This document shows positions 12,478 through 30,299 of a DNA stretch of 57,678 nt, one piece after another. The position numbers and the translations under genes were made by a program. The notes beneath the pieces were generated by a model, which did not search any database, was not told where the DNA came from, and worked only from the letters and a program-made list of their open reading frames with translations. Numbering within the stretch: position 1 is the stretch's first letter; the number at the start of each line of letters is the position of its first letter. Origin of the DNA: an uncultured Bacilli bacterium (GTDB lineage: Bacteria; Bacillota_I; Bacilli_A; RFN20; CAG-826); NCBI GenBank assembly GCA_944375905.1, contig CALWAS010000027.1:1-57678 (forward strand), given 5' to 3'.

Positions 12478-12723
12478 ATGAACGAAAAAGAAAAGGTCAT
12501 GGCCGGAATCAACGCGATCATCGACCGGGACAACCCGCCGGAACTGAACCTCTACATAGTGATGCTGGAGCATCTCGCCAAGGAAGGGCTCATCGACGTC
12601 TTCGACGTCTACGACGCGATAACGGAGCTGAGGAGGGAGATGGGCCTGGAGGAGATAGCCTATGAGGATAAAGAGCCTGTTCAGGCCAAGGATAATAAGG
12701 GCGACAAGGAAAAGGGGTCGTGA
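12478..12723 (+). CDS. Small acidic helical protein in the serine-recombinase module, 81 aa
   Basis: The product starts MNEKEKVMAGINAIIDRDN; it is short, acidic and mostly helical, with a charged Lys/Asp-rich tail. I do not recognise a family. Its stop codon TGA overlaps a possible GTG start of the following recombinase (GTGA), the arrangement of a coupled accessory protein, and the G+C-rich codon use matches the recombinase. The ATG at 12478 is preferred over one 36 bases upstream because the protein's own composition begins there, but no good Shine-Dalgarno is visible. It might be a recombination directionality or regulatory factor (inference from position only). Confidence 0.55.
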   Translation: MNEKEKVMAGINAIIDRDNPPELNLYIVMLEHLAKEGLIDVFDVYDAITELRREMGLEEIAYEDKEPVQAKDNKGDKEKGS

Positions 12724-12747
12724 CCTCCTGGAGGACAAGTCCACCAC

Positions 12748-14375: not shown

Positions 14376-14396
14376 AAGTGTTCTTCTACTTGGAAT

Positions 14397-14415
14397 GCAT
14401 TTAATGCCCTACTTC
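14397..14415. repeat. Possible right att site of recombinase 1 segment
   Basis: gcatttaatgccctacttc matches 12278-12296 at 17 of 19 positions in direct orientation. It overlaps the last codons of the ImmA/IrrE gene. Confidence 0.4.
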
Positions 14416-15989
14416 AGCTTCTCACAGACAGATTTTTTTGAGACGAGCTCAGCATAAAACTTCCTGATGCGATCCTCGGATTCCTGACGCGCCAACATCA
14501 TCTCTGGAATCTTGTTAGGTTCCCTGGCAGAAATGATTTCAAAAGTCATGTCTTCCTTTATCCCACGGCAGAGGTAGCAGAAAGTTGCGAAGGCAGCAAA
14601 TTCGCGAGCAAAAAATGCCGACTTGGTCCTTATCTTGAATCTCACCGCGCATTCGTCGAGATGGACACTGGCATAATCTGTGAGTTCTCCATCATCCTTT
14701 ATGAACTTCGGCGAATTGAAAACTACAGGGTTTTCAATGAAGCGGTAGGTGCCATTGAAGAAAAGTCCAAAGACATACTGATTGAAGCCATTAGCAAGAT
14801 CCGAGAATGAAACGGTAAAGGTTTCTCCTTCTTTAAGGCTTCCTTTGGCAAATCGATATGGCTTCACGTACTTTCCATCAGCGAACTCAAGCATACCCTG
14901 TGCCGTCTCATACCCGAGGTCGATTAGCCTCTTCTTCGCGGCATATACGGTCACGCCGAATCTTTCGGCAAGAGCTTTGATGACCAAGGGCCCGTAATCC
15001 TCGATTTTGTTTCCCACGAGAATCTGCGCCGTTTCCTCTTCTTCTCTGAGGGCATCTATGAACCGTTTTCTAGGCATCAGGACACACGGGGCTATCGCGT
15101 TTGCCTGTATCTCAGCAAACTTGAAGTCTTCGTCTTCATCGGGATTGTCCAGGCTCCCGGTAGAGAGGCAGCGCATGGATGATATCCGGTGATCAAATAC
15201 CCGGGCGAAACGAACGGCCTTTGTGTGTAAATAGAAATGAAGGCACTCGTGGATGATCGTGATGTTGATGGAATTGAATGAGAGGGAATGGTTCGCGCTC
15301 CTGTCTATCACGATTGTGTTGGGGTCGACGGATTCTTCGCGGCAGGAATCGGTTTCCTCGTCATAGAAAGGTATGTCCGCACGCACGAAGACCGAGAGCC
15401 CGAAGACGCTCTTGTCCTTCTTGATCCTCCTCTCGATGATCCTGAGCCCCATCCTTTCGGCGACGAGATAGGGATCGACGGGAACTTCCCCGCCCAACGA
15501 TTCTGGCGAATATGTCCTAAGGAAAGCCTTGGCTTCCTCATCGAATTGCTCCTTCCTGATGTAAGGGACGAGCGACCCGTCAAGCGAGTTCGCCGAACGG
15601 CTTGGATCGTATTCGTCGATCCCGTTAAAGGTTACGTTTTCAAGGCCGTCCTGCCCGATTTTCGCGAGATACTGGACCCGAAGCCACAAGCCGCTGTACG
15701 AATCCGATTCGATGTCGTAATGCCCGCTGAAATCGGCTCGGAAAGCAATGACGGGGTTCACTATGACCTCGAAGCAAATGCCGTCCTCGATTTCGTCGTA
15801 ATCCCAGACCTTCACGCACTTGATGCCCACGTCGTCGATCACGACGTATTCGATCCTGCTCAGGTGCGCGTATCGATCATCGTTGTAGATGATGTGCGAG
15901 GCACTGCGTCTGCAGAAATTCCTCACCTGTTTGAGAACGTCTTCGGAAAGGCACCTCGTGACGTAATCGGAGAACTTGTTTTTCGCCAT
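14409..15989 (-). CDS. ImmA/IrrE-family zinc metallopeptidase-like protein, 526 aa
   Basis: Residues about 165-380 form the ImmA/IrrE (COG2856) peptidase: the helix IIHECLHFYLH carries the HExxH zinc site (His247, Glu248, His251) and FAEIQANAIAPCVLMP supplies the downstream Glu ligand. A 160-residue N-terminal region and a 150-residue C-terminal region are not recognised, making the protein much longer than the usual 150-300 residues; no HTH is obvious. Family members cleave repressors to activate mobile elements or stress genes. It is divergent from the R-M operon across a 240-base regulatory gap, so control of that operon is the natural hypothesis. The start has GGGGAGGATCC upstream. Its 3' end overlaps a direct repeat. 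Confidence 0.8.
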   Translation of the reverse strand: MAKNKFSDYVTRCLSEDVLKQVRNFCRRSASHIIYNDDRYAHLSRIEYVVIDDVGIKCVKVWDYDEIEDGICFEVIVNPVIAFRADFSGHYDIESDSYSGLWLRVQYLAKIGQDGLENVTFNGIDEYDPSRSANSLDGSLVPYIRKEQFDEEAKAFLRTYSPESLGGEVPVDPYLVAERMGLRIIERRIKKDKSVFGLSVFVRADIPFYDEETDSCREESVDPNTIVIDRSANHSLSFNSINITIIHECLHFYLHTKAVRFARVFDHRISSMRCLSTGSLDNPDEDEDFKFAEIQANAIAPCVLMPRKRFIDALREEEETAQILVGNKIEDYGPLVIKALAERFGVTVYAAKKRLIDLGYETAQGMLEFADGKYVKPYRFAKGSLKEGETFTVSFSDLANGFNQYVFGLFFNGTYRFIENPVVFNSPKFIKDDGELTDYASVHLDECAVRFKIRTKSAFFAREFAAFATFCYLCRGIKEDMTFEIISAREPNKIPEMMLARQESEDRIRKFYAELVSKKSVCEKLK

Positions 15990-16211
15990 TAATGGATCCT
16001 CCCCTTCTGCCTGTCAAAAAAGGCCTCGACTCGATGGAATACACGATGGCCCCGATTGGAAGAAGCCTCTTTAATATTTGAAGTAATTATCCCCCAATCC
16101 GCATAGCGGAGGATCCGGTCAGCCTAAGCACACCCGTTCCCATCGCACCGGAATTCTAAGTTAGGCACGCGGCCGTGGCAACATATAAAACGTCGATATC
16201 CAATTTTGGTA

Positions 16212-16240
16212 TTTACATACTAAGTTAAAGGTGTTACAAT
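16212..16240 (+). promoter_or_regulatory. Strong sigma-70-type promoter of the R-M operon
   Basis: TTTACA (16212-16217), a 17-base spacer and TACAAT (16235-16240) lie 26 bases before the first ATG of the operon. An 8-base direct repeat CTAAGTTA occurs at 16156-16163 and again inside the spacer at 16220-16227, which could be a repressor target. Confidence 0.75.
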
Positions 16241-16266
16241 ACTACCATAGAATCGGAGGTGCCTTC

Positions 16267-17874
16267 ATGAACCCACGCGAAAACCAAGAACACGATATCC
16301 GCAGACGCGTCTTTGCCCTGAGGGGGTATGGAATTTCGGACGCGGACACCTTCGTTGACACGCTTCATAGGGTGCTGAAGGCAAAGGACAAGCTGAAGGG
16401 AACGGACCCGACGGTATCCGTCATCTATGACGCCATGCTCTTGGCGATCCCGTCGGCTCCCCTCCTTTCCCCGGACGAAGCCACCTACGCGACAATGTAC
16501 GACATGCTCTCCGGGGTCGATGCCCGTCAAGCGTTTTCCTTCATCAACGCTTTCAGCTACGGCCGCGAAATCGTCGTCCCATCGGCCATGGCAAGGAAGT
16601 TCGGTGAATACGTCTCGGAAGGGACGAGGACCGTCTTGGTCCCCGAATTCGAGCAGCTCGGACCCGCCATCCTGGAAGTGATCAATAGCCATCCGAACGT
16701 CATGTTCACCCTCACCTGCAAGCGGGAATCGAAACGCAGCCTTTTCTCCATGCTGCTCAAATCGTACGCCAACGTCAGCGTGGAAGTCGCAGACATCTAT
16801 AAATACGGTTTCACGTCGGAGAGATACGACCTCATCATCGCGATTCCGGTTTTCGGCGGACGAATCCTGGTGAACGACCAGGACTTCATCAGCCGTGAAC
16901 CAAGCCTGATCGCTCTCCAGAACCTCCTTTACCACATCAACATCGACGGGGAGCTAGCCATTGTCCTGCCCGCGAAGATCACGTTCGGAGGCGGCAGCAC
17001 GGCGGAACTCAGGAATTACGTCGAGAGCAATTACAAAATCAAGGAAATCAGCGCCCTCCCTGCGGGGCTTTTCTCCTCGTACACATCCATAAGGACGTAC
17101 CTGTTCGTCTTCTCGACGGGCAAAACGGACGAAGTGGTCCTGAAACGGTACGGATTCGAGGCGCCATCCGGGGGAAAGACCGTGGACGGCGAGCTGATCG
17201 CATCCAACGAGCAGCTTCTTTTCGGGGACGAGTTCGCGGAATTGAGCGGCTGGAACATCGACATGGCCTTTTCCGAGGAGGACGACGACATAAAGGCATT
17301 CGCCTCATCCCCGGTCAAGAAACTGGAATTGAAGGAAGTCGCGACCGTGTTCAGGGGGAAGGCCGTCACGGCGAGAGACGAATGCGGGAACATAGGCGTC
17401 ATTAACATCTCCAACATCACGGATACAGGGATCGACTATTCGAGCCTCGACCTAATCTCAGAGGAGGAACGGAAGGTGGCGCCTTATGCCCTCCAGGACG
17501 GGGACGTCCTCGTCACATCGAGGGGCACGACCGTCAAGATCGCGGTATTCGAGCGGCAGCCGATGACCTGCATCCCCTCCGCGAACATCAACGTCATAAG
17601 GCCGAAGGAGCCGCTGAACGGCACGTACCTGAAGCTGTTCCTCGAATCGTCGGTCGGCGCGAAGATGCTCAAAAGCCTCCAGCGAGGGACGGTAATCGTG
17701 AACATTAACTACAGGGACATGAGCGAGTTGGAAGTCCCCGTCCCGCCGCTCGAAACCCAGGAGGAGATCGCCCGCGAATACTCGACGGGCTTGGCTTTCT
17801 ACAAGGAGACGATCAAGACGGCCAACGATGGTTGGGAGAGGCTTCAAGCCGAGATCGAGTCGAAACTTTACTAG
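16267..17874 (+). CDS. Pseudo-methylase fused to an HsdS-type target recognition domain, 535 aa
   Basis: Residues about 100-290 follow the HsdM N6-adenine methylase fold, ending with LPAKITFGGGSTAELRNYVE and ISALPAGLF, which are the usual HsdM 'VLP-G-LF' and 'LP-GvF' segments. The catalytic (N/D)PP(Y/F) motif is replaced by IPVF (in LIIAIPVFGG) and there is no DPACGTG SAM-binding motif, so it should not methylate DNA. Residues about 335-535 form one HsdS-like TRD (LKEVATVFRGKAVTA..., NYRDMSELEVPVPPLETQEEI) with the following helix. It is the first gene of the R-M operon, starting at an ATG behind GGAGGT. It probably binds DNA through its TRD and acts as a structural or regulatory subunit (inference). 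A divergent type IIG enzyme is less likely because both catalytic motifs are missing. Confidence 0.75.
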   Translation: MNPRENQEHDIRRRVFALRGYGISDADTFVDTLHRVLKAKDKLKGTDPTVSVIYDAMLLAIPSAPLLSPDEATYATMYDMLSGVDARQAFSFINAFSYGREIVVPSAMARKFGEYVSEGTRTVLVPEFEQLGPAILEVINSHPNVMFTLTCKRESKRSLFSMLLKSYANVSVEVADIYKYGFTSERYDLIIAIPVFGGRILVNDQDFISREPSLIALQNLLYHINIDGELAIVLPAKITFGGGSTAELRNYVESNYKIKEISALPAGLFSSYTSIRTYLFVFSTGKTDEVVLKRYGFEAPSGGKTVDGELIASNEQLLFGDEFAELSGWNIDMAFSEEDDDIKAFASSPVKKLELKEVATVFRGKAVTARDECGNIGVINISNITDTGIDYSSLDLISEEERKVAPYALQDGDVLVTSRGTTVKIAVFERQPMTCIPSANINVIRPKEPLNGTYLKLFLESSVGAKMLKSLQRGTVIVNINYRDMSELEVPVPPLETQEEIAREYSTGLAFYKETIKTANDGWERLQAEIESKLY

Positions 17875-17924: not shown

Positions 17925-20849
17925 ATGGCAACAGCGTTCAACGAAGACAACACGATAGAGAGAATGGTGATCTCCACCCTCGAAACGAGAGGCTGGAAAT
18001 ACATCCCGGCGGAGGAACTGCCCCGCGATTATTCCGACGTGATCGTCGAGCCGATGGTGAAGGAGGCCCTCATCCGCCTCAACCCCGTGATCGCGGAGGT
18101 TCCCTCGCGGGCGGACGAGGTCATCTACAAGCTGAGGGCGCTGATACACTCCGTCCAGCCACACAACCTCGTCACCCAGAACGAGCTTTTCAAGAAGATG
18201 GTGTTCGAGGAGAACTCCTACCCTTTCGGAAAGGACGGAAGGATGGTGCCGATACGCTTCTTCGGGACCATGAGAAAGGATGACCTCGCCCTAAACGAAT
18301 ACGTCGTCACCAACCAGTGGGTATACCCGCAGGCCGAGGGAGGCAAGCGGCTCGACATCGTTCTCCTGATAAACGGCTTCCCCGTCGCCATCGGGGAACT
18401 GAAGACGCCCGTCCGCAGCGCGATAAGCTGGCTCGACGGGGCCGGCGACATTTCAGCCTACGAGAAGAGCATACCGGCTATGTTCGTCACAAACGTCTTC
18501 AACTTCGCTACCGAAGGAAAGTGCTTTCGCTACGGTTCCGTCAACATGCCGATCAACACCTGGGGGCCTTGGCACACGGACGGCCACAAGTCGGAAGGCT
18601 CCCTCGCCGACGTGAAAATCAGCATAGAAGATATGATCACCCCAGAAAAGGTCATGGACATATTCCAGTTCTTCACGATGTTCGCGACGGACAAGAAGTA
18701 CCGGAAATACAAGATCATCTGCCGATACCAGCAGTTCGAAGGCGCCAACATGATCGTGGACCGCGTCGTGGCCGGATATCCAAAGAAAGGGCTCATATGG
18801 CATTTCCAGGGATCTGGAAAGTCCCTGCTCATGGTTTTCGCCGCGCAGAAGCTCCGAATGATCCCCGAACTGAGGAACCCGACCGTCGTCATCGTGGACG
18901 ACCGGATCGACCTCGAGACGCAGATCACCGCCACCTTCAACGCATCTGACATACCCAACCTCACGACCGCGTCGACAAAGGAGGAGCTCATCTCCTTCTT
19001 CAAGGGCGACATGCGCAAGATCCTGATAACTACCATCTTCAAGTTCGGAGAGGTCACCGGCGAACTGAACAATCGCGACAACATCATCGTGATGGTCGAC
19101 GAAGCTCACAGGACCCAGGAAGGAAACCTCGGAGAAAAGATGAGGATCGCCCTTCCAAACGCCTTTTTCTTCGGGCTTACAGGCACGCCGATCAACCGGG
19201 TGGACAAGAACACCTTCGCCACCTTCGGGGCCGAGGAGGACCGTTCCGGGTACATGAGCCGCTACTCCTTCTCCGACTCGATCAGGGACGGGGCGACCCT
19301 CCCTCTCCACTTCGAACCGGTACCGGTGGAGCTCCACGTGGACAAGGACAAGCTCGACCAGGCTTTCGAGGCCATGTCCGAGGAGGCCGGACTCGGGAAG
19401 GAGGACATGGCCGAGCTATCGCGCCGGGTCAACATGAAGGCGATCATGTACAATCCCGCCCGAATCAGGAAGGTCTGCGAGCACATAGCGAAGCACTTCA
19501 GGGAAAGGATCGAGCCCAACGGCTACAAGGGTCAGGTCGTCGTCTACGATCGCGAGTGCTGCCTGAGGTACAAGGAGGTCCTCGACGAGCTCCTCGGCGA
19601 AGACGCCAGCACCATTGTCATGGACACCAACAACGACAAGGAGGACCGCTACAAGAAATACCGCCGCGACCGCGACGAGGAAGGAAAGGTCCTCGACACG
19701 TTCCGCGACCCGAACTCGCCTCTCAAGCTGGTGATCGTGACATCAAAACTGCTGACCGGCTTCGACGCGCCGATCCTTCAGGTCATGTATCTCGACAAGC
19801 CGATGAAGGACCACACCCTGCTCCAGGCCATCTGCCGCACGAACAGAACGTACGACCAAGGCAAGACGTACGGCCTCATCGTCGACTACATCGGGATCTT
19901 CGACGACGTGGCGCGTGCCCTCGACTTCGACGAGACAAGTATGAGAAAGATCATCACGAACATCGAAGAGATAAAGAAGCAGCTTCCCGCCCTCCTTAAA
20001 AAGTGCCTCAGCTACTTCATGGGCGTCGACAGGACGCTGGAAGGCTGGGAAGGCCTCATGGTGGCCCAGGAATGCCTGCCGACCAACAAGGAAAAGGACG
20101 CCTTCGCCGCAGACTACCGCGTCCTGAACCGTGCCTGGGACGCCCTGTCCCCAAGTTTGTTCCTCAAGCCCTACAAATCGGACTACCAGTGGCTCTCGCG
20201 CGTCTACGAATCAGTAAGGCCCACGGACGGCCGAGGCGGGTTGCTCTGGGTGTCGCTGGGTGCAAAGACCATAGAGCTCGTCCACCAGAACCTGACCGTC
20301 GGGGAGGCCGAGGAGGACACGGAAATCCTCTCGATGGACGCGGATCTGATCGACGAATTCCTCGAGAAGCAAAAGGACATGAAGAAGGCGACGAAGAAGG
20401 TCGAGATAAACCTCGTGGCCAAGATCATGAGGCATTCCAAGGACCCGAAGTTCATCAAGCTTGGCGAGAAGCTGGAAAGCCTCCGCGAGAAACACGAGCA
20501 GGGGCTGCTCACGAGCATGGAATTTCTCAAACTCCTCCTCGAACTCGCAAAGGAAGCGGCCCAGGCGGAAAAGGAAGTCGTGCCGGAAGAGGAAATCGAC
20601 AAGGGCAAGGCGGCCCTGACGGAGCTGTTCAACGGGCTCAAGAACCGCAACACGCCCGTGATAGTCGAACGAATCGTCGCCGACATCGACAACATCGTCA
20701 AGATCGTCCGCTTCGACGGATGGCAGAACACCACCGCCGGCAAGCAGGAAGTCAGGAAGGCTTTGAGAAGCGTCGTCTGGATCAAGTACAAGATCAAGGA
20801 CAAGGACGTCTTTGACAAGGCCTACAGATACATCGAACAGTACTACTGA
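17925..20849 (+). CDS. hsdR: Type I restriction enzyme R subunit
   Basis: The 974-residue protein has the full HsdR layout. The N-terminal nuclease domain shows RLDIVLLINGFPVAIGELK (Asp144, Glu158, Lys160 of the PD-(D/E)xK site). The SF2 translocase follows with Walker A GSGKS (296-300), DEAH (392-395) and LTGTP (418-422), then the second RecA lobe with SKLLTGFDAP and QAICRTNR, and a helical C-terminal domain that docks to the methylase. It translocates DNA and cuts unmethylated foreign DNA in the HsdR2M2S complex. All catalytic residues are present. The ATG is preceded by GGGAGG. It stands 50 bases after the pseudo-methylase and 28 bases before hsdM1, so all appear to be one operon. Confidence 0.95.
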   Translation: MATAFNEDNTIERMVISTLETRGWKYIPAEELPRDYSDVIVEPMVKEALIRLNPVIAEVPSRADEVIYKLRALIHSVQPHNLVTQNELFKKMVFEENSYPFGKDGRMVPIRFFGTMRKDDLALNEYVVTNQWVYPQAEGGKRLDIVLLINGFPVAIGELKTPVRSAISWLDGAGDISAYEKSIPAMFVTNVFNFATEGKCFRYGSVNMPINTWGPWHTDGHKSEGSLADVKISIEDMITPEKVMDIFQFFTMFATDKKYRKYKIICRYQQFEGANMIVDRVVAGYPKKGLIWHFQGSGKSLLMVFAAQKLRMIPELRNPTVVIVDDRIDLETQITATFNASDIPNLTTASTKEELISFFKGDMRKILITTIFKFGEVTGELNNRDNIIVMVDEAHRTQEGNLGEKMRIALPNAFFFGLTGTPINRVDKNTFATFGAEEDRSGYMSRYSFSDSIRDGATLPLHFEPVPVELHVDKDKLDQAFEAMSEEAGLGKEDMAELSRRVNMKAIMYNPARIRKVCEHIAKHFRERIEPNGYKGQVVVYDRECCLRYKEVLDELLGEDASTIVMDTNNDKEDRYKKYRRDRDEEGKVLDTFRDPNSPLKLVIVTSKLLTGFDAPILQVMYLDKPMKDHTLLQAICRTNRTYDQGKTYGLIVDYIGIFDDVARALDFDETSMRKIITNIEEIKKQLPALLKKCLSYFMGVDRTLEGWEGLMVAQECLPTNKEKDAFAADYRVLNRAWDALSPSLFLKPYKSDYQWLSRVYESVRPTDGRGGLLWVSLGAKTIELVHQNLTVGEAEEDTEILSMDADLIDEFLEKQKDMKKATKKVEINLVAKIMRHSKDPKFIKLGEKLESLREKHEQGLLTSMEFLKLLLELAKEAAQAEKEVVPEEEIDKGKAALTELFNGLKNRNTPVIVERIVADIDNIVKIVRFDGWQNTTAGKQEVRKALRSVVWIKYKIKDKDVFDKAYRYIEQYY

Positions 20850-20877: not shown

Positions 20878-22431
20878 ATGAAAAAGATCGATTCAGCCGC
20901 CGATCCCAAAACCGGGAAGAAACCCTCGGGGATCAAGGAAAGCGAGGAAACCACAAGCCAAAAGCTCTTCTCGCACCTGTACGAGGCCTGCAACATCCTG
21001 CGTGGCCCGATCAACCAGGACGAATACAAAAGCTACGTGACGCCGATTCTCTTCTTCAAGCGGATCTCCGACGTCTATGACGAGGAGACGCAGGCCGCGC
21101 TGAGGGAATCGGGCGGCGACGAGGAATACGCGAGTTTCCCCGAAAACCACCGCTTCGTCATACCGGATGGGTGCCATTGGCAGGACGTCCGCGAGGCGAG
21201 CGTGGACGTCGGCGTCGCCATCGTCAACGCCATGAACGGGATAGAAAGGGCGAACCCCGACACGCTTAGCGGCGTGTTCAGCAGCTTCGACGACGCGAAT
21301 TGGACGGACAAGAACAAACTCAGCGACGAACGCCTGAAGGACCTGATCGAGCACATGTCAAAGATAAAGGTCGGAAACAACGATTATTCCGCCGATGTCA
21401 TGGGCGACAGCTACGAATTCCTGATCAAGAAGTTCGCCGACCTTTCCAAGAAGAACGCAGGCGAGTTCTACACTCCCCGCTCGATCGTCAAGCTCCTGAT
21501 CATGCTGTTGGACCCGAAGGCCGGGGAGACGGTTTACGACCCAGCCTGCGGTACCGGGGGGATGCTGATCGAGGCGATCCGGTACATGAACGATGACAAG
21601 CTGACCTACGGAAGAATCTACGGGCAGGAAAAGAACCTCGGGACCTCTTCCATCGCCAGGATGAACCTCTTCCTCCACGGGGCGAGGGATTTCCGGATCG
21701 TCCAAGGCGACACCCTCCGCTCGCCCCATTTCCTCGAGCGCGGGTCGCTGAAGACTTTCGACTGCGTCGTCGCCAATCCCCCGTTTTCCCTCGAGAACTG
21801 GGGTTCCGACCAATTCAGCAACGATATCTACGGAAGGAACATATGGGGCTGCCCCACCGATTCCAACGGCGACTTCGCCTGGCTCCAGCACATGGTCAAG
21901 TCGATGGACCCGAAAAACGGCCGTTGCGCCGTCGTGCTCCCGCAGGGCGTCCTCTTCAGGGGCGGCAAGGAAGGCGAGATCAGGAAAAAGCTCGTCGAGT
22001 CCGACAAGCTCGAGGCGATAATCACGCTCGCCAGCGGGGTCTTCTACTCCACCGGCGTCTCGGCGTGCATACTGTTCCTGAAGAACAACAAGTCCCCGGA
22101 GCACAAAGGGCGGGTCTGCATGATCGACGGATCGGGAATCTACACCCCGCAGCGCGCCCAGAACATCATGACGGAGGAAAACATACAGGACGTCTACGGG
22201 CTCTACTCCGCCTACGCGGACGTCATCGAGAAATCGAAGGTTGTGACGATTCAGGAAATCAGGGACAGGGACTATTCGCTCGCCATCAACAACTACATCG
22301 AGAAAAAGGAGCAGGAAACCGTGCCGCCAGCGGAGGTCCGGAGGCATTATTTCGAAGCCTACGCGAAAATGGTCGAAGCCGAGGAAAAAATGCGAGAGCT
22401 CTTGGTGAAAGGAGGCTACGTCAGTGAGTAA
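20878..22431 (+). CDS. hsdM: Type I DNA methyltransferase M subunit, first copy
   Basis: The 517-residue protein contains the HsdM helical N-terminal domain (SHLYEACNILRGPINQDEYK, TPILFFKRISD) and the N6-adenine methylase domain, with SAM motif DPACGTGGM and catalytic NPPF (in VVANPPFSL). QEKNLGTSSIARMNLFLHG and VLPQGVLFRGGKEGEIRKKL are classical HsdM stretches. The C-terminus is helical, for contact with HsdS. It should be active. The ATG follows AGGAGG; an upstream in-frame start would overlap hsdR with no support. It overlaps the second hsdM gene by 8 bases. The N-terminal 25 residues form a Lys/Ser-rich extension. Confidence 0.95.
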   Translation: MKKIDSAADPKTGKKPSGIKESEETTSQKLFSHLYEACNILRGPINQDEYKSYVTPILFFKRISDVYDEETQAALRESGGDEEYASFPENHRFVIPDGCHWQDVREASVDVGVAIVNAMNGIERANPDTLSGVFSSFDDANWTDKNKLSDERLKDLIEHMSKIKVGNNDYSADVMGDSYEFLIKKFADLSKKNAGEFYTPRSIVKLLIMLLDPKAGETVYDPACGTGGMLIEAIRYMNDDKLTYGRIYGQEKNLGTSSIARMNLFLHGARDFRIVQGDTLRSPHFLERGSLKTFDCVVANPPFSLENWGSDQFSNDIYGRNIWGCPTDSNGDFAWLQHMVKSMDPKNGRCAVVLPQGVLFRGGKEGEIRKKLVESDKLEAIITLASGVFYSTGVSACILFLKNNKSPEHKGRVCMIDGSGIYTPQRAQNIMTEENIQDVYGLYSAYADVIEKSKVVTIQEIRDRDYSLAINNYIEKKEQETVPPAEVRRHYFEAYAKMVEAEEKMRELLVKGGYVSE

Positions 22432-23923
22432 GAGAATCACCCTGGAGGAACTGCAGTCCTACCTATGGAATTCCGCGGTTCTCCTCCGCACGAACATCGA
22501 TGCGGGCGCGTACAAGCAATACATATTCCCGCTGCTCTTCTTCAAGCGGATCTGCGACGTATACGACGAGGAAACCGCCAAGGCCTACGAGGAATACGGC
22601 GATGAGGCGGCGGAGTTCGATCCGAGCGAAATCCATACCTTCGTGGTTCCCGAGGGCTACCACTGGAACGACGTGCGCGCGGTGGCCGAAAATGTCGGCG
22701 ACGCAATCGTCAAGGCATTCCGGAAAGTCGAGAACGCCAACCTAGACAAGCTGCAAGGGATATTCGGGGATGGTTCATGGACGAACAAGAACCGCCTGCC
22801 GGACAGGCTCCTCAAGGACCTGCTGGAACATTTCAGCACGAAGACGCTCTCGATCGCCAATTGCCCCGAGGACGAGCTCGGCCAGGGATACGAATACCTC
22901 ATCAAGAAGTTCGCGGACGACAGCGGCCACACCGCCCAGGAGTTCTATACAAACCGCACGGTCGTGCACCTGATGACCGAGATGCTGAAGCCCGAGTCCG
23001 GCGAATCCATCTACGATCCAACGTGCGGAAGCGCCGGGATGCTCATCTCGTCCATCGCCTACCTGAAGGAACAGAACAAGGAATGGAGGAACGTCGCCGT
23101 GTACGGGCAGGAAATCAACGCGCTCACTTCCGCAATCGGGAGGATGAACCTCTTCCTCCACGGCGTGAAGGACTTCAACATCGTGAACGGAGACACCCTG
23201 AAGTCGCCGGCCTTCGTCGAAAACGGCCGCCTCAAGCAATTCGACCTGTGCCTGGCCAATCCACCCTACTCCATCAGCCAATGGGACCGCGCCGCCTTCG
23301 AAAGCGACAAATACGGGCGCAACTTCCTCGGCGTTCCCCCACAGGGACGGGCCGACTACGCGTTCATCCAGCACATCATCGCTAGCCTCAAGCCCGACAC
23401 GGGCCGCTGCGCCATCCTCCTCCCGCACGGGGTCCTTTTCCGGAACGAGGAAAGCGCGATGAGGGAAAGGCTCGTCCGCAGCGACAAGATCGAATGCATC
23501 ATCGGACTGGGGCCGAACCTCTTCTACAACTCGCCGATGGAGGCCTGCATCATGATCTGCCGGATGTCCAAGCGTCCGGAAAGGCGAGGCCAGGTGCTTT
23601 TCATCAACGCGGTGAACGAAGTCGAGAGGAAGAATGCCCAGAGCTACCTTAACGACGGGCACATCAAACGAATCGCTTCCGCCTACGAGAACTACCGGGA
23701 CGACGCCGATTTCGCGAAGATCGCGACAATAAGCGACATCGCCGGCAACGACTTTTCACTGAGCATCCCCCTCTACGTGAAACCCAAAACAGTCGAGACG
23801 ACCGAAGACGCCCGTTCGCTTCAGGGGCACTACCGGGATTGGCTGGCAGCTTCAAGGGACATGAGACAGGAATACGAAAAACTGAACGAAATGCTGAGAA
23901 AGGAGGTAGGCGACAATGAGTAG
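22424..23923 (+). CDS. hsdM: Type I DNA methyltransferase M subunit, second, diverged copy
   Basis: This 499-residue HsdM is a clear paralogue of the upstream one but well diverged: SAM motif DPTCGSAGM, catalytic NPPY (in LANPPYSI), QEINALTSAIGRMNLFLHG and LLPHGVLFRNEESAMRERL. Both active-site motifs are intact. It starts with GTG inside the last codons of hsdM1, at good distance from AGGAGG, and its own last codons overlap the half-hsdS start by 8 bases. Type I systems normally have one hsdM, used twice in the complex. Two tandem intact genes suggest a heterodimeric methylase pair, one per HsdS half, or two alternative enzymes (inference). Confidence 0.93.
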   Translation: MSKRITLEELQSYLWNSAVLLRTNIDAGAYKQYIFPLLFFKRICDVYDEETAKAYEEYGDEAAEFDPSEIHTFVVPEGYHWNDVRAVAENVGDAIVKAFRKVENANLDKLQGIFGDGSWTNKNRLPDRLLKDLLEHFSTKTLSIANCPEDELGQGYEYLIKKFADDSGHTAQEFYTNRTVVHLMTEMLKPESGESIYDPTCGSAGMLISSIAYLKEQNKEWRNVAVYGQEINALTSAIGRMNLFLHGVKDFNIVNGDTLKSPAFVENGRLKQFDLCLANPPYSISQWDRAAFESDKYGRNFLGVPPQGRADYAFIQHIIASLKPDTGRCAILLPHGVLFRNEESAMRERLVRSDKIECIIGLGPNLFYNSPMEACIMICRMSKRPERRGQVLFINAVNEVERKNAQSYLNDGHIKRIASAYENYRDDADFAKIATISDIAGNDFSLSIPLYVKPKTVETTEDARSLQGHYRDWLAASRDMRQEYEKLNEMLRKEVGDNE

Positions 23924-24479
23924 GGTCCTGCTAGGAGAGGTTGCCGTGGAAAGGAAGGAAACCTGCAAGGAGAACCGCGCCGGATATCCCAGCGTCGGCC
24001 TCGAACATCTCGTCCCGGAGGAGGTTTCCTTGACACAATGGGACGAAGGAAAGGAGAACACCTTCACCAAGATGTTCCGGAAAGGGGACGTCCTCTTCGG
24101 GCGCCGCCGCGCCTATCTGAAAAAGGCATCCGTTGCCGATTTCGACGGAATTTGCTCCGGAGACATCACCGTTATTTCTGCAAAACCCGATCGGATCGTC
24201 CCGGAATTGCTGCCTTTCGTGATCCAGAACGACGCAATGTTCGAATTCGCGGTTGGCAAGTCGGCGGGATCCCTCTCCCCTCGCGTCAAGTGGAATCACA
24301 TGAAGGACTTCGAATTCGAGCTCCCGGACATGGACAGGCAAAGGCAGCTCGCCGACGTTCTTTGGGCGATGGAAGACACGAAAAGGAACTATCGGAGGCT
24401 GATCTCGGCAACCGACGACCTCGTTAAGTCTCAATTTATCGGGGTCAGAGGTCTTCGCGCTTCGACAATTGGGAGGTGA
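23916..24479 (+). CDS. hsdS: Half-size HsdS with one target recognition domain
   Basis: The 187-residue product has one TRD (MFRKGDVLFGRRRAYLKKAS, VKWNHMKDFEFELPDM) and the conserved helix with DRQRQLADVLWAMEDTKRNY and DDLVKSQFI. It then ends after an unrelated 12-residue tail (GVRGLRASTIGR). Its TRD belongs to the same subfamily as the first TRD of the next gene. The point of divergence is exactly the repeat shared with that gene, so this looks like a first half whose second half has been removed. As a protein, half-HsdS can dimerise in some systems and recognise a palindromic split site, so it may be functional. Its stop overlaps a GTG by three bases, and the next gene follows at once. Confidence 0.85.
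   Translation: MSRVLLGEVAVERKETCKENRAGYPSVGLEHLVPEEVSLTQWDEGKENTFTKMFRKGDVLFGRRRAYLKKASVADFDGICSGDITVISAKPDRIVPELLPFVIQNDAMFEFAVGKSAGSLSPRVKWNHMKDFEFELPDMDRQRQLADVLWAMEDTKRNYRRLISATDDLVKSQFIGVRGLRASTIGR
24411..24441 (+). repeat. HsdS exchange site A
   Basis: This 31-base stretch is identical to 24998-25028 in the full hsdS gene. Its last 13 bases (tctcaatttatcg, 24429-24441) are the start of the 20-bp exchange repeat. The sequence then diverges completely, as expected for a crossover product. Confidence 0.8.
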
Positions 24480-24484
24480 ATGCA

Positions 24485-25636
24485 ATGGCAAGATTCAGAT
24501 TTGGTGACCTCGTACGTGAGGTCAAGGAAAAGATCGATCGCGAGAACAATCCTTACGAATATTTCATCGCCGGCGATCACATGGACACCGATGATCTCCA
24601 TTTGAATCGCAGAGGAACTTTTGAGGGAAGTGATGTCGGCCCCGCTTTTATCAGGGTGTTCCATCCTGGACAGGTCTTATATGGTTCGCGCCGTACGTAT
24701 TTACGTAAGGTGGCCGTTGCGGATTTTGAAGGAATAACGGCTAACACGACTTTCGTTTTGGAAAGCAAGGACGAAACCGTTCTTCTGCAAAGCCTTCTCC
24801 CCTTCATCATGCAGTCCGAACGTTTTACGCAGCACTCAATCAAGCGTTCGAAAGGATCGACAAATCCTTATGTCCTCTTTTCGGACCTGTGCGATTACGA
24901 GATCGAACTCCCTGATATAGAGGAACAACGGAAAATTTCGCAGATTTTGTGGGCAATTGACGATACGAGGCAGGAATACAAAAGGATGCTCCAAAAGACC
25001 GACGACCTCGTTAAGTCTCAATTTATCGAGATGTTCGGCATGCCTGGATCAAACGAAAAGGGGTGGGGATTAACCAAACTTAGTGATTGTTGTGTCCTGA
25101 ATCCGCACCGCCCTAGGGGAATGGATACTACGATGCTGTGCTCTTTTGTTCCGATGCCAGCAGTCAACGAGAGAGGGATTGTTGATCCATCTGATTGGAG
25201 GCCTATTGGTGAAGTTTCGAAAGGATTTACATATTTTGCGGAAAACGACGTTCTTTTTGCCAAAATCACACCCTGTATGGAAAACGGAAAAGGCGGAATC
25301 GCAATTAACTTAAAAAACGGCATTGGTTTTGGATCAACGGAATTTCACGTACTTCGCCCTATCTCTGAAAAAAGCAATCCATACTGGCTCTATATCATCA
25401 CCACATTCGAAAAGTTTCGTATTGACGCAGAAAAGGTCATGACAGGCACTGGCGGACAACGCAGAGTACCAATCTCATACTTAGAAGAATACCCGATTTC
25501 CCTGCCGCCTTTGGCGCTCCAAGAGCAATTCGCGGCCTTCGTAAGGCAGAGCGATAAATCAAAATTTGAACTTAAAAAAGCTCTAGATGAGCTAAACGCC
25601 ACATACAAACGAATCTTGTCCGAATATCTTGGCTAA
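24485..25636 (+). CDS. hsdS: Full-length type I specificity subunit HsdS, two TRDs
   Basis: The 383-residue protein has TRD1 (about 1-150; FHPGQVLYGSRRTYLRKVAV), the central conserved helix (EEQRKISQILWAIDDTRQEY, KTDDLVKSQFIEMFG), TRD2 (about 180-350; NDVLFAKITPCMENGKGG, RRVPISYLEEYPISLPPLALQEQF) and the distal helix (FVRQSDKSKFELKKALDELNATYKRILSEYL). This is a complete HsdS that sets the bipartite recognition sequence. ATG 24485 sits 8 bases after GGAGG. DNA encoding TRD2 is clearly richer in A+T than the methylase genes, and the composition step falls at the repeat 24998-25035, a sign that TRD2 was swapped in. A 37-base repeat (25532-25568) marks the other end of TRD2. Confidence 0.92.
   Translation: MARFRFGDLVREVKEKIDRENNPYEYFIAGDHMDTDDLHLNRRGTFEGSDVGPAFIRVFHPGQVLYGSRRTYLRKVAVADFEGITANTTFVLESKDETVLLQSLLPFIMQSERFTQHSIKRSKGSTNPYVLFSDLCDYEIELPDIEEQRKISQILWAIDDTRQEYKRMLQKTDDLVKSQFIEMFGMPGSNEKGWGLTKLSDCCVLNPHRPRGMDTTMLCSFVPMPAVNERGIVDPSDWRPIGEVSKGFTYFAENDVLFAKITPCMENGKGGIAINLKNGIGFGSTEFHVLRPISEKSNPYWLYIITTFEKFRIDAEKVMTGTGGQRRVPISYLEEYPISLPPLALQEQFAAFVRQSDKSKFELKKALDELNATYKRILSEYLG
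24998..25035 (+). repeat. HsdS exchange site B
   Basis: The first 31 bases equal site A. The last 20 bases (tctcaatttatcgagatgtt, 25016-25035) are identical to 26708-26727 and 27263-27282, all in the same orientation. It encodes KSQFIEMF at the TRD1/TRD2 boundary of HsdS. Confidence 0.9.
25532..25568 (+). repeat. 37-bp repeat closing the expressed TRD2 cassette
   Basis: These 37 bases, containing cttcgtaaggcagagcgata, are identical to 27206-27242 at the end of the silent cassette. They encode AAFVRQSDKSKF. The sequences diverge immediately after aaaatttg. Confidence 0.9.
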
Positions 25637-25652
25637 TCGGTAAGGTCATGAA

Positions 25653-25706
25653 GTTTCCTCCGGCTCGTGCAAACCTGGCTAACGGAGGACATGAAATGGA
25701 GGAAAC
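25653..25706 (+). promoter_or_regulatory. Hairpin that could hide the ribosome site of the tyrosine recombinase
   Basis: GTTTCCTCC (25653-25661) is perfectly complementary to GGAGGAAAC (25698-25706), which is the Shine-Dalgarno sequence placed 7 bases before the recombinase ATG. The loop contains another GGAGG (25684-25688). Pairing would block translation of the recombinase, so its amount could be controlled post-transcriptionally. Confidence 0.5.
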
Positions 25707-25709
25707 ATC

Positions 25710-26687
25710 ATGATCAATCAGTTAATTTCAGACGTATTGAGGGATTTGGACAGTATCCTATCCGAAGACCAAAAGAAAGCTTTGACTCAGTCGTTAACCA
25801 AGCAGTTATCAAAACTTAACGCTTTCAACCAGCCAAACGAAAACGTGAAGCAGCACATGCTTCCGCTTTTTATTGCCGCCAAGCGCGTTGAAGGGTGCTC
25901 CGAAAAATCCCTTAGGTACTACGAATCGACGATAAGGAATATGCTCGATTCGATCGAGAAGGTAGAATGCCAAATCACCACTGAGGATCTTCGCGATTAC
26001 CTCGATGCCTATCAAAGGCGCGGAACAGTAAGCAAGGTAACCTTGGACAATGTTCGCCGGATTCTCTCTTCGTTCTTTGCTTGGTTGGAGGACGAAGACT
26101 ACATCGTAAAAAGCCCCGTCAGAAGAATCCACAAGGTGAAAACCGGCAAAACCGTGAAGGAAACTTATTCTGACGAATCGCTGGAACTCATGCGCGATCA
26201 CTGTGAGACAACCAGAGACCTAGCGATGATAGACATCTTGGCTTCTACCGGCATCCGTGTTGGCGAATTGGTGAAGCTAAACAGGAACGACATCGATTTC
26301 GAAAACCGCGAGTGCATAGTCTTTGGAAAGGGCAACAAGGAACGAAAGGTTTACTTTGACGCCAGGACGAAAATACATCTACAGCGCTATCTATCCGAAA
26401 GAACGGACGACAACGAGGCTCTTTTCGTCTCCCTGCTGCAACCTTTTTCCCGGCTTCAGATAAGCGGCGTTGAAATCAGGCTTCGCAAAATAGGCCGTGA
26501 GCTGAATTTTCACAAGGTCCACCCGCATAAGTTCCGCAGAACATTAGCGACGATGGCGATCGATAAAGGAATGCCGATCGAGCAAGTTCAACAACTTCTC
26601 GGTCACCAAAGCATTGACACCACCCTCCAATATGCGATGGTCAATCAGAATAATGTCAAAGAGTCGCACCGAAAGTTCATAGGCTAA
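25710..26687 (+). CDS. Tyrosine recombinase of the HsdS shuffling locus
   Basis: The 325-residue protein has a SAM-like N-terminal core-binding domain (about 50-145) and a catalytic domain with the R-H-R-H-Y set: Arg183 in TGIRVGEL, His273 and Arg276 in HPHKFRRT, His299 in LLGHQ and Tyr308 in TLQYAMV. It is XerC/D-like in size. Tyrosine recombinases next to multiple hsdS genes are known to shuffle specificity domains (for example in streptococci and mycoplasmas). Here the gene lies between the expressed hsdS and a silent TRD cassette, both bounded by the same repeats. Its codon use is lower in G+C than the methylase genes. It has its own ribosome site, possibly masked by a hairpin. Confidence 0.92.
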   Translation: MINQLISDVLRDLDSILSEDQKKALTQSLTKQLSKLNAFNQPNENVKQHMLPLFIAAKRVEGCSEKSLRYYESTIRNMLDSIEKVECQITTEDLRDYLDAYQRRGTVSKVTLDNVRRILSSFFAWLEDEDYIVKSPVRRIHKVKTGKTVKETYSDESLELMRDHCETTRDLAMIDILASTGIRVGELVKLNRNDIDFENRECIVFGKGNKERKVYFDARTKIHLQRYLSERTDDNEALFVSLLQPFSRLQISGVEIRLRKIGRELNFHKVHPHKFRRTLATMAIDKGMPIEQVQQLLGHQSIDTTLQYAMVNQNNVKESHRKFIG

Positions 26688-26707
26688 GCATATCTGCTGT
26701 TTGCAAT

Positions 26708-26727
26708 TCTCAATTTATCGAGATGTT
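26708..26727 (+). repeat. HsdS exchange site C
   Basis: Exact copy of tctcaatttatcgagatgtt at the left edge of the silent TRD2 cassette, in the same orientation as sites B and D. Confidence 0.9.
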
Positions 26728-27205
26728 TGGAAACCCAATCAAAAACGATCGTGGATGGCGAACATTAAAAATGAGCGACGTTGCTCCTTCAACGCCATAT
26801 CAGGGAGAAATCAAGCCAAAAGACGGCAAGGTTTGGTTATTAAATCTTGACATGGTCGAGCCAAACACAGGAAAAATCATCGAAAAATTACTGGTAGATC
26901 CGAAGGATATAGGCAACTCAACTCTTATGTTTTCGCCCAAGAACGTCCTTTATTCAAAGCTAAGACCTTATCTAAATAAGGTAGTCGTTCCAGATGATTA
27001 TGGATACGCTACTACGGAAATGGTTCCTCTGTTGCCATCCAACAAAAACTTAGATCCGGGCTTCTTTAGCGCTCTTTTACGTGGCAACGAATTCTTGAAT
27101 TATATTGAAACGCAAGCTACCGGTACAAAAATGCCAAGAGTTCAAATGAATATCTTTTGGAATATTGACGTTATCCTTCCGCCGTTGGAGTTACAAGAGC
27201 GGTTT

Positions 27206-27242
27206 GCGGCCTTCGTAAGGCAGAGCGATAAATCAAAATTTG
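27206..27242 (+). repeat. 37-bp repeat closing the silent TRD2 cassette
   Basis: Identical to 25532-25568. Its last bases (aaatcaaaatttg, continuing tcg) resemble the core of the 20-bp exchange site, aaatctcaatttatcg, with only three differences over 16 positions. Confidence 0.9.
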
Positions 27243-27262
27243 TCGCTTAGTGGGCATTCAAA

Positions 27263-27282
27263 TCTCAATTTATCGAGATGTT
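27263..27282 (+). repeat. HsdS exchange site D, fused to a recombinase gene
   Basis: Third exact copy of tctcaatttatcgagatgtt. It is followed directly by the middle of a serine recombinase gene, in the frame that would read KSQFIEMFVDGYSYREI. Confidence 0.9.
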
Positions 27283-28348
27283 CGTCGACGGCTACTCCTA
27301 CAGGGAGATAATCGATTATCTAAGGAAAAGCGGCACCAAGAACGCGAAGGGCGAATGCAAGTGGGACGTGGGAGCCATACACAGGATACTCACCAACGAG
27401 AAATACTGCGGCGACCTGATATACCAAAAGACCTACTGCAACAACTACCTCACCCACGAGAGGAGGAAGAACCTGGGAGAGGTCGAGCAATACCTGATAA
27501 CGGAGCACCACGAAAGGATCGTGGACAAGGACCTGTTCATGTTCGTTCAGATGCTGCTCAGAAAAAGGAAGGAGGATTACGACCCGAGGACCGGGAACGC
27601 GAACGCCACTTCCCTGGCCGGGCTCGTCTACTGCGCCTCCTGCGGAAGGTTGATGAGGCGAATCCTATATTACAAAGGAAAGCCATACGAAAGGCACGTC
27701 CTCACCTGCAAGGTCGACGGAAGGAAGAACGTGAACTATTCCGACTGCCCCCAAAGGAAGACGCTCGACTACCGATTGGTGGAAGATGCGGCAAAGGCCA
27801 TCGTCGAGGAAAGGCTGGAGAAACTGGATGCAGGCCTGCTCCTGGATTCGATAAGGAAGGGAAAGACGATAGGAGACTTCTACTCGAGGTCCGAAGAGAT
27901 AAAGAGCCAAATGGAAAAAACGCAGAACGAACTTAGCGAACTCGTCAAAAGACAGATGAAGGAATGCCTCCCGCTTTCGGGTTACCAGAAAGCCTACAAG
28001 GCGCTCCAAGAGAAGATGAATTCCCTCAAAAGCGAATCCGAAAGCGTGCTGAAGGAAGCATACGAAAACAACAGAAAAAACAATTTCAACGAAGATTTGA
28101 CGGGGTTTTTGCATGAAAAAGCGGCTTTTTCGCCCAGGATTGCATCGCTTTTGATAAAGAGGATCTATAGGCTCGAGGACAACTCGGTCCTGTTCGTCTT
28201 ATCGAACAAGCCGCTCGACGAAAAAACGCTTGAAAACATCGGGAAATCCTCAGCGGATTATCTTTACCTTCCCGAAAAAGTGATCGATAGAAACGGCAGA
28301 AGACTTGCCTACAGGATACTGGATTTGGAGGAAAAGGAACATGAATAG
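27278..28348 (+). pseudogene. Serine recombinase 2, N-terminal catalytic domain missing
   Basis: The 356-codon frame begins at MFVDGYSYREIIDYL, which corresponds to the middle of the recombinase domain (compare IFMMYLAGRNTGEISDYL in the intact recombinase 3, at about residue 205). It continues with ILTNEKYCGDLIYQKTY, a four-Cys zinc ribbon (YCASCGRLMRR, then two Cys in LTCKVDG and SDCPQRK), a coiled coil and a C-terminal domain. The resolvase domain with its catalytic serine, about 200 residues, is absent. The break is exactly at exchange site D, and the start ATG is part of that site. It has no ribosome site of its own. Its last codons overlap recombinase 3 by 8 bases, as in an original tandem recombinase operon. 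Confidence 0.88.
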
Positions 28349-29969
28349 CACGATACACTCGCTTCACAAAGCCAAGGACGGAAGGAAGCTCAAGGTCGCC
28401 GCCTACGCGAGGATCTCCTACGACAAGAAGGAACTCGAGTCCTCGCCTGAGAACCAGATAAGGCACTACACTTCCCTTATCAATGGAAACCATGAATGGG
28501 AGTTCGCGGGCATCTACGCGGACGACGGGATAAGCGGCTCCACCGTCAAGAAGAGGAACCAGTTCCAGCTGATGCTCACAAAGGCCTTCGCCGGGGAGAT
28601 AGACATCATATTGGTGAAATCCATCTCGAGGTTCGCCAGGAACCTGCTAGATATGTTGAAGGTCGTCCAGGAGTTGAGGGACTCAGGGGTCGAGGTCTAT
28701 TTCGAGAAGGAGGGGATATCCACGCTCGACACCAAATGCGACAACTACCTCACCCTCTACTCCAAGTTCGCAGAGGAGGAGCTGATATCCATGGGCAAGA
28801 ACGTCTCATGGTCCTACCAGAAGAGGATAAGGGATGGAAGGTTCTTCATAAACGCCAACCAGCTGTTCGGGTACAAGTTCGACAAGGACAGGAACATCGC
28901 GATCGAGGAATGCGAGGCCAAGTACGTGAGGGACATCTTCATGATGTACCTTGCCGGCAGGAACACCGGGGAGATCAGCGACTACCTGGAGGAAAACCAC
29001 GTGCCCACCCAGACCGGGCTCTCGAGATGGTCCGGCCAAAGCATCAGGCAGATACTCAGGAACGAGAAATACTGCGGCATGGTAATTCTCCAGAAGACCT
29101 ATACCGAAAACGCGTTGACCCAGAAAAGGCGGAGCAACGACGGGAAGCTGGACAAGGTGATCATCGAGAACGCCCTTCCCCCGATAGTGAGCAAGCAGGT
29201 CTACCTGGAAGCGCAGGAAAGGATGAAAAGCCTCGCCGAGAAATACAACCTCACGGGGAGGAACGCCTACAGCCATACCAACTCCTACACCGCCTTCGGA
29301 TATTTCCCTTATTGCAGAAGCCCATACTTCAGGAAATGGAACCACGGCAACGAGGCCCTCTACTGCTCCTCCAACAAGGAAAGGTCGAGGTGCAAGGAAA
29401 GCGAATCGGTGTTCGTGAAACACCTAGACGAGATAATCCCATTGATGGTTAAGAAGCTGCTCGCAAACGAAAGCGAGTTCAGGAAGGAGCTCTTGGAGGC
29501 CTTCGGCGACGAAAGCCTCATGGAGAAAAAGGAAAGGATCGATGCCCTAACCAAGGAAATCGATGGCCAAAGGGAAAAGCTTCTTCAATACGACGGCCTT
29601 TCGGGGGACGCGTTCGACGCCATCAAGGACTGCCTGAGGAAGAGCATAAACGAACTTTCGGACGAAAAGGCGGTGCTGGAAAACGAACGGCTGGTCGAGG
29701 CGAATCCCGAAACGAGGGCGAACGAAATCATCAAGGAACTGCATAGGTTCCCCAATACCGATAAAATCGGGGATTATGACTTCAGGAAGCTGTTCAAGAG
29801 GATGATAGTCATCAACAGGGACAGGCTGATATTCGTGGTCGGTTCCGACAATGTGGAAAACCTCCCCTACAACCCCCAATCCATAAACATGAGGTTCATA
29901 GAAATCTATAGATATAAGATTAGATGCTCTTGGTTTACCTGCAACTTCGGCATCTACATCAACAAATAG
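28341..29969 (+). CDS. Large serine recombinase 3, intact
   Basis: The 542-residue enzyme has the resolvase domain with nucleophile Ser26 in VAAYARISYD, the arginine-containing SKSISRFARNLLDML helix-strand region, then the recombinase domain (GYKFDKDRN, ISDYLEENHVPTQTG, ILRNEKYCGMVILQKTY). A zinc-ribbon region is poorly conserved (PYCRSPYF, YCSSNKERSRC), and a long coiled coil follows. The family integrates or excises phages, ICEs and cassettes by double-strand exchange at attP and attB. The ATG at 28341 follows GGAAAAGGA and overlaps the end of recombinase 2. With recombinases 1 and 2 it forms what was probably a three-recombinase module, of which only this member is complete. A strong terminator follows. 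Confidence 0.92.
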   Translation: MNSTIHSLHKAKDGRKLKVAAYARISYDKKELESSPENQIRHYTSLINGNHEWEFAGIYADDGISGSTVKKRNQFQLMLTKAFAGEIDIILVKSISRFARNLLDMLKVVQELRDSGVEVYFEKEGISTLDTKCDNYLTLYSKFAEEELISMGKNVSWSYQKRIRDGRFFINANQLFGYKFDKDRNIAIEECEAKYVRDIFMMYLAGRNTGEISDYLEENHVPTQTGLSRWSGQSIRQILRNEKYCGMVILQKTYTENALTQKRRSNDGKLDKVIIENALPPIVSKQVYLEAQERMKSLAEKYNLTGRNAYSHTNSYTAFGYFPYCRSPYFRKWNHGNEALYCSSNKERSRCKESESVFVKHLDEIIPLMVKKLLANESEFRKELLEAFGDESLMEKKERIDALTKEIDGQREKLLQYDGLSGDAFDAIKDCLRKSINELSDEKAVLENERLVEANPETRANEIIKELHRFPNTDKIGDYDFRKLFKRMIVINRDRLIFVVGSDNVENLPYNPQSINMRFIEIYRYKIRCSWFTCNFGIYINK

Positions 29970-30222: not shown

Positions 30223-30299
30223 TGGCGCGCCCGAAGGGACTCGAACCCCTGGCCCACAGCTTAGAAGGCTGTTGCTCTATCCAGCTGAGCTACGGGCGC
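30223..30299 (-). tRNA. tRNA-Arg (anticodon TCT)
   Basis: The minus strand folds into a complete cloverleaf: acceptor GCGCCCG paired with CGGGCGC, D arm with AGCTCAGCTGGATAGAGC, anticodon loop CTTCTAA with TCT at 30263-30265, T arm with GGTTCGAGTCC, and an encoded CCA end at 30223-30225. It reads AGA/AGG arginine codons. The mobile region with serine recombinases ends about 200 bases from its 3' end, but no copy of the tRNA end is seen at the left side of that region. Confidence 0.95.

Follow-up and report, generated by a model that had tools for sequence, protein, structure and literature searches.

The 57,678-nucleotide stretch of DNA from an uncultured Bacilli bacterium of the gut analysed here (contig CALWAS010000027.1 of assembly GCA_944375905.1, positions 1 to 57,678; hereafter the window) carries a type I restriction-modification (RM) operon in which hsdR and two distinct hsdM genes are followed by a half and a full hsdS, a tyrosine recombinase and a stored cassette encoding a target recognition domain (TRD) of the second class, TRD2. 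A preliminary description of this DNA had proposed that the locus shuffles its hsdS specificities combinatorially through direct repeats, and this is still the best reading, given the modular junctions at a short core sequence, the mosaic relatives and an exact core-bounded duplication. We put at roughly 85% the probability that the cassettes are excised and re-inserted by the recombinase, with a recombinase-bearing circle swapping TRD2a for TRD2b. We infer that the window recombinase acts on the repeats described below, that the circle forms and that methylation changes. The locus is real and functionally plausible, and is a member of a broad family.

The array lies entirely on the plus strand. 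An open reading frame for a half HsdS with TRD1a (23916-24479; PADLOC Specificity_I, 8e-61) is followed by one for a full HsdS with TRD1b and TRD2a (24491-25636; Pfam Methylase_S, 9e-21), which is presumed to be the active specificity gene, then by an Xer-like tyrosine recombinase (25710-26687; Pfam Phage_integrase, 1.5e-33; NF040815) whose catalytic residues are intact, the catalytic columns being invariant in the alignment, and finally by the stored TRD2b cassette (26708-27250; Pfam Methylase_S, 5e-5; PADLOC, 5e-27). The repeats first reported at the joints are all where they were said to be, and all on the plus strand as claimed: 31 identical nucleotides at 24411-24441 and, at the TRD1b end, 24998-25028; the exact 20-mer TCTCAATTTATCGAGATGTT at 25016, 26708 and 27263; and 37 identical nucleotides at 25532-25568 and 27206-27242. 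The 20-mer occurs at these three places only in the 1.22-Mb genome, with up to 3 mismatches allowed, and its reversed control has zero occurrences there. Because both 31-nucleotide copies end within the same sequence, a fourth copy of its core can be added to the earlier account, the 13 nucleotides TCTCAATTTATCG at 24429-24441, at the end of the half HsdS.

Every cassette joint carries the 13-nucleotide core in a single orientation: site A within the first 31-nucleotide copy, site B in the centre of hsdS (25016-25035), site C immediately 3' of the recombinase gene (26708-26727) and site D at the end of the array (27263-27282). The half HsdS frame departs from the HsdS register immediately past site A, and in the stored cassette the ATG of the core is the sole start and the C-terminus is short. 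The 37-nucleotide repeat, here called TER, is of a second type and closes each TRD2 (TER1 at the TRD2a end, TER2 at the TRD2b end). Outside the repeats, aligned DNA identity is 57% for TRD1a and TRD1b and 54% for TRD2a and TRD2b, compared with 49-52% for shuffled sequence; the paired TRDs are thus near-unrelated in DNA, and identity is restricted to the joints. No exact inverted pair of at least 15 nucleotides occurs within 4.5 kb of the recombinase.

Related loci were collected by a recombinase-profile scan of named genomes and another of viral contigs, so that the sample is drawn by the recombinase. About 30 loci share both the backbone and the core of the window, with two hsdM genes wherever the contig extends far enough; the nearest, L067 in the metagenome-assembled genome (MAG) SUG591, is 90% identical in HsdR, 85-86% in the two HsdM and 85% in the recombinase. 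Isolates that carry the locus include Colidextribacter sp. OB.20 and Anaerosphaera multitolerans GS7-6-2. Across these loci the core occurs 71 times in direct and once in inverted orientation, and its reversed control 0 times in either. To its left stands the end of a TRD1, of the recombinase or of a TRD2, and to its right the start of a TRD1 or a TRD2, and all six pairings occur around the invariant core, with module classes that are pattern-based and with site D of the window, which a serine recombinase follows, assigned to the TRD2 starts because its frame is open. Judged from sequence, such free combination of modules is the hallmark of a site-specific exchange acting at the core.

Individual relatives show what this exchange may leave behind. 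Among close relatives, compared as suggested for a different TRD2 at this place, L071, L073 and L100 are 94-97% identical along the locus except in their TRDs, and the identity breaks off at the core and at TER. Downstream of its recombinase, L073 stores a TRD2 of the type that is active in L100 (82% over 661 nucleotides). In L072 a 1,673-bp unit comprising TRD2 and the recombinase is duplicated exactly in tandem, and both ends lie within the core. This is the result expected if a circle had inserted into a sister copy; the duplication is known from a single contig, where an assembly effect is possible in principle. In L075 the active and stored positions contain identical 499-nucleotide TRD2 sequences whose limits coincide exactly with the core on one side and the end of TER on the other; L151 has an identical pair of 535 nucleotides. 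The same RM system is found without a recombinase in L065, which has a single hsdS and a core that is not intact (TCACGATTTGTTGAGATG). Searching 196 genomes from the same family for the recombinase produced nine matches at 54-63% identity. Most of them are part of other type I systems whose repeats differ and are often inverted or mixed, and for that reason we did not take them as direct support for the window core. In one related locus, L042 (8285-14371), a single recombinase is surrounded by both direct and inverted hsdS repeats.

How could such an array exchange its cassettes? Two site types would be in play, the mid-gene core TCTCAATTTATCG at sites A, B, C and D and the tail repeat TER at 25532 and 27206, and the productive route would be a recombinase-carrying circle that leaves at one repeat type and enters at the other. 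Excision between TER1 and TER2 would release the recombinase together with TRD2b as a circle of 1,674 bp, and re-insertion of this circle at site B would place TRD2b, with a full C-terminus, in hsdS and leave TRD2a in store. Alternatively, excision between sites B and C would give a 1,692-bp circle with the recombinase and one TRD2, to be re-inserted at TER. When recombined in silico the two routes yield an identical product, and TRD2a and TRD2b would be swapped with both the recombinase and the hsdS tail retained. TRD1a would be brought into use by deletion between sites A and B, or by insertion at A. The four specificities predicted earlier from 2 x 2 TRDs hold up in this respect, since in-silico recombination of the window gives open hsdS frames with the correct architecture and a normal C-terminus for all four TRD1 x TRD2 pairs; four HsdS proteins, and so four methylation targets, would be possible. 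Simple deletions between B and C or between A and C shorten the C-terminus and lose the recombinase in silico, and are for these reasons probably dead ends. The 555-base circle (26708 x 27263) of the preliminary description would not be the productive form: both the recombinase and the hsdS tail would be missing from it.

The short interval between the hsdS stop and the recombinase start points to a means of control. An RNA hairpin at 25644-25715 (plus strand; z -5.6) pairs GTTTCCTCC with the recombinase Shine-Dalgarno sequence GGAGGAAAC and covers the AUG. The same region reaches z <= -3 in 12 of 16 TCT-core loci, against 0 of 42 other gene starts in the same operons. An alignment of 18 leaders was too loose for pair counting, and the consensus was therefore folded from 11 close leaders, in which 20 pairs are kept, two of them with both sides changed. 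The hairpin is absent from the TCG-core group (0/9), and a partly similar fold is seen in 6 of 18 members of the inverting clade discussed below; it is, then, lineage-specific and not universal. By masking the ribosome-binding site and start codon of the recombinase, it probably keeps switching rare. No terminator-like site was found on the plus strand between hsdS and the recombinase. Since the hairpin starts only seven bases past the hsdS stop, the terminating hsdS ribosome might open it, although such translational coupling is a guess. A wider and decidedly tentative proposal is that a clade of hsdS recombinases specialised for cassette exchange at direct sites serves a dual-HsdM type I class across Firmicutes and Bacteroidales and is limited by its own hairpin, which would allow translation of the recombinase only if ribosomes reach the end of a full-length hsdS installed immediately before it.

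Site D departs from this orderly pattern. Its left side is an ordinary TRD2-cassette end, but the reading frame through the 27263 copy continues into a serine recombinase that lacks its N-terminal part (27278-28348, plus strand) and not into a further TRD. This protein, regarded as a bystander, retains its C-terminal part with the recombinase domain. The missing first ~208 residues of this protein, its catalytic domain, are not found elsewhere in the assembly, and a simple insertion splitting the gene was dropped as an explanation for that reason. In a relative of the serine recombinase from L057 the matching DNA is ATATTTGAAATGTTC, close to TTTATCGAGATGTTC, and the fusion is likely the product of a mis-targeted recombination at a secondary site resembling the core, in which the end of the array was lost; no undisturbed parent was found.

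This fusion, and the nature of TER, weigh against the shuffling model. Site D implies at least one aberrant event, and the array could be partly decayed. TER and the mid-gene site share only a weak core, TC..AATTT, and exchange at TER may be driven by RecA or otherwise be independent of the window recombinase. Could the window locus then be a frozen remnant, its relatives still switching but this copy now fixed by the site D fusion and the loss of terminal cassettes? In keeping with this, the serine recombinase joined to site D is truncated, with its catalytic half missing from the genome, and the 20-mer has no further genome copies, but the recombinase, sites A to C and both TERs are intact and exact and every in-silico product has open frames, so that we regard a frozen copy as unlikely. 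Still less probable is an exchange of cassettes over evolutionary time by RecA-type homologous recombination or gene conversion, with no programmed switch and with the recombinase as a passenger or minor helper. The pneumococcal tvr and ivr loci do still rearrange at a low level without their recombinase, and some relatives have TER repeats and shared TRD starts of sufficient length for exchange by homology. Against this, the conserved core is just 13 nucleotides and is kept across Firmicutes and Bacteroidales hosts, the L072 duplication ends within it, every sampled core-bearing locus has a recombinase (in a sample drawn by recombinase), and the related system that is free of recombinase has no core.

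The remaining alternatives concern the half HsdS and the contig itself. The half HsdS could be a working single-TRD subunit that pairs with one HsdM and provides a second, simultaneous methylation target, in place of a store. It has its own start and overlaps hsdM2 in the manner of an operon gene, two different HsdM are present, and in engineered EcoR124I an N-terminal TRD is able to form dimers (as cited in PMC6265443). Its end, however, falls at the core with an out-of-register tail, like the hsdM-adjacent cassettes of L069, L076, L084 and L147, and a tvr HsdS with a short second TRD appeared inactive (PMC6265443); we consider a working subunit improbable. As a precedent for a working half HsdS we weighed a palindromic half-S product at tvr and discarded it, since the source paper itself rejects it. 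An assembly chimera, merging two strains or two states of the locus, is the least probable of all: the source genome is in 27 contigs and repeats invite mis-joins, but the same layout is seen in independent isolate and MAG assemblies.

The backbone on which the array sits is that of a complete type I system. HsdR, two HsdM, the HsdS domains and the phage-integrase type recombinase are all recovered by Pfam and PADLOC, and the HsdR, HsdM and HsdS subunits have intact domains. The restriction subunit, hsdR (17925-20849, plus strand), matches Pfam HSDR_N and SWI2_SNF2 and NCBIfam TIGR00348. Two N6-adenine methylase genes follow on the same strand, hsdM1 (20878-22431; Pfam N6_Mtase, 8e-99; motifs DPACGTGG and NPPF) and its paralogue hsdM2 (22424-23923; N6_Mtase, 7.5e-90; motifs DPTCGSAG and NPPY), with 44% identity between them. 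Two paralogous hsdM genes are adjacent in all complete loci of the lineage and in the window both have catalytic motifs, which together suggests that the pair may form a heterodimeric methylase. In L065 (7973-10423) hsdM1 has an N-terminal ADP-ribosylglycohydrolase domain (PF03747) that the window hsdM1 lacks; the hsdM1 of L067 (4891-7308) has the same opening sequence as this domain-bearing hsdM1. Third-position G+C is 0.43-0.59 in the exchangeable part, from TRD1b to TRD2b, against 0.81-0.83 in hsdR and hsdM, which suggests that an older backbone carries a module that is younger or has been exchanged repeatedly. A promoter scan found fewer promoter-like sites than in shuffles; this is consistent with a cassette that has no promoter of its own, and is no proof of it. 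Rfam gave no significant RNA family, and one sub-threshold match, SAM_alpha on the minus strand, was taken as chance.

The surroundings of the operon are also of some interest. Upstream of hsdR, window positions 16231-17874 encode a protein with a degenerate N6-methylase part, in which IPVF replaces NPPF, and a C-terminal TRD; it has relatives in L065, L067, L069, L075 and L151. An IrrE-type gene lies on the minus strand at 14409-15989 (Pfam M78). In L067 the region after the shuffling array (13332-17116) holds a DUF262/GmrSD-like gene and an IrrE-type peptidase gene, both named by eye. Two more serine recombinases flank the RM region of the window (12720-14375 and 28341-29969), with a tRNA-Arg at 30223-30299, and an integrative element may carry the region as its cargo.

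Why might systems of this kind have been missed? The main survey of switching type I systems, made on REBASE, looked for inverted repeats only (PMC7394358), so that direct-repeat loci could not come into its view. Of the loci in the sampled recombinase family that can be classified, about half are direct, and orientation largely tracks the recombinase clade. The split between direct and inverted loci makes the frequency of cassette exchange in gut bacteria directly testable, the recombinases provide a set with two natural site types for epigenetic switching, and the start-codon hairpin is a simple handle on switching rate.

The preliminary description had set the direct repeats against the inverted repeats of the classical inversion systems. 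That contrast stands, but it is not new, as the pneumococcal tvr (SpnIV) locus already uses direct-repeat excision and reintegration, for which recombinase-bearing circles and dependence on the recombinase have been proven (Kwun et al. 2018, PMC6265443). The inverting hsdS loci (ivr/SpnIII/cod, and those of Listeria, S. suis and Enterococcus; PMC7394358) have a related recombinase (~60-66% identical) and serve the same purpose of TRD exchange, but their repeats are inverted, with a core of the TAAACGATAATTTAG type, and one exchange flips the segment so that excision is unnecessary. In a quick recombinase tree, from a sample drawn by similarity to the window enzyme and with some orientation labels noisy within the direct groups, they form a third clade (support 99), separate from the 30-row dual-hsdM group that includes the window (support 90) and from a 13-row group that includes the Doc-linked enzymes (support 91). 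The dual-hsdM system of L065, with one fixed hsdS, shares the operon logic of the window (hsdR 78%, hsdM1 73%, hsdM2 69% and the methylase-TRD protein 47% identical) but has no recombinase, no repeats and an unconserved core, and its hsdM1 is fused to the ADP-ribosylglycohydrolase domain.

The closest parallel is tvr itself. As in tvr, N- and C-terminal TRD cassettes stand on both sides of a tyrosine recombinase in a 3+1 arrangement, direct repeats of a mid-point and a tail-end kind all face the same way, and the recombinase between the hsdS cassettes is homologous to the tvr-type enzyme. It is 62-66% identical to the Doc-linked recombinases of L253, L254 and L256, which serve as stand-ins for TvrR; a Fic/Doc gene precedes the recombinase in these three (genomes of the order of L117, an Enterococcus MAG), confirmed in L256. 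Unlike tvr, the window has two hsdM genes, a degenerate methylase-TRD gene and hsdR upstream. The Phd-Doc pair (tvrAT) is absent upstream of its recombinase, where the gap to hsdS is only 73 nucleotides, a start-codon hairpin replaces the terminator-like transcriptional attenuator, and the recombinase groups apart from the Doc-linked enzymes. A search of the open-access literature found no description of a dual-hsdM version. We conclude that the window locus works like tvr yet lacks several of its defining features, namely Phd-Doc, the attenuation and the recombinase group. The principle is already known from tvr; what appears to be new is the breadth of the family, its dual-hsdM backbone, the start-codon hairpin and the association of repeat orientation with the clade of the recombinase.

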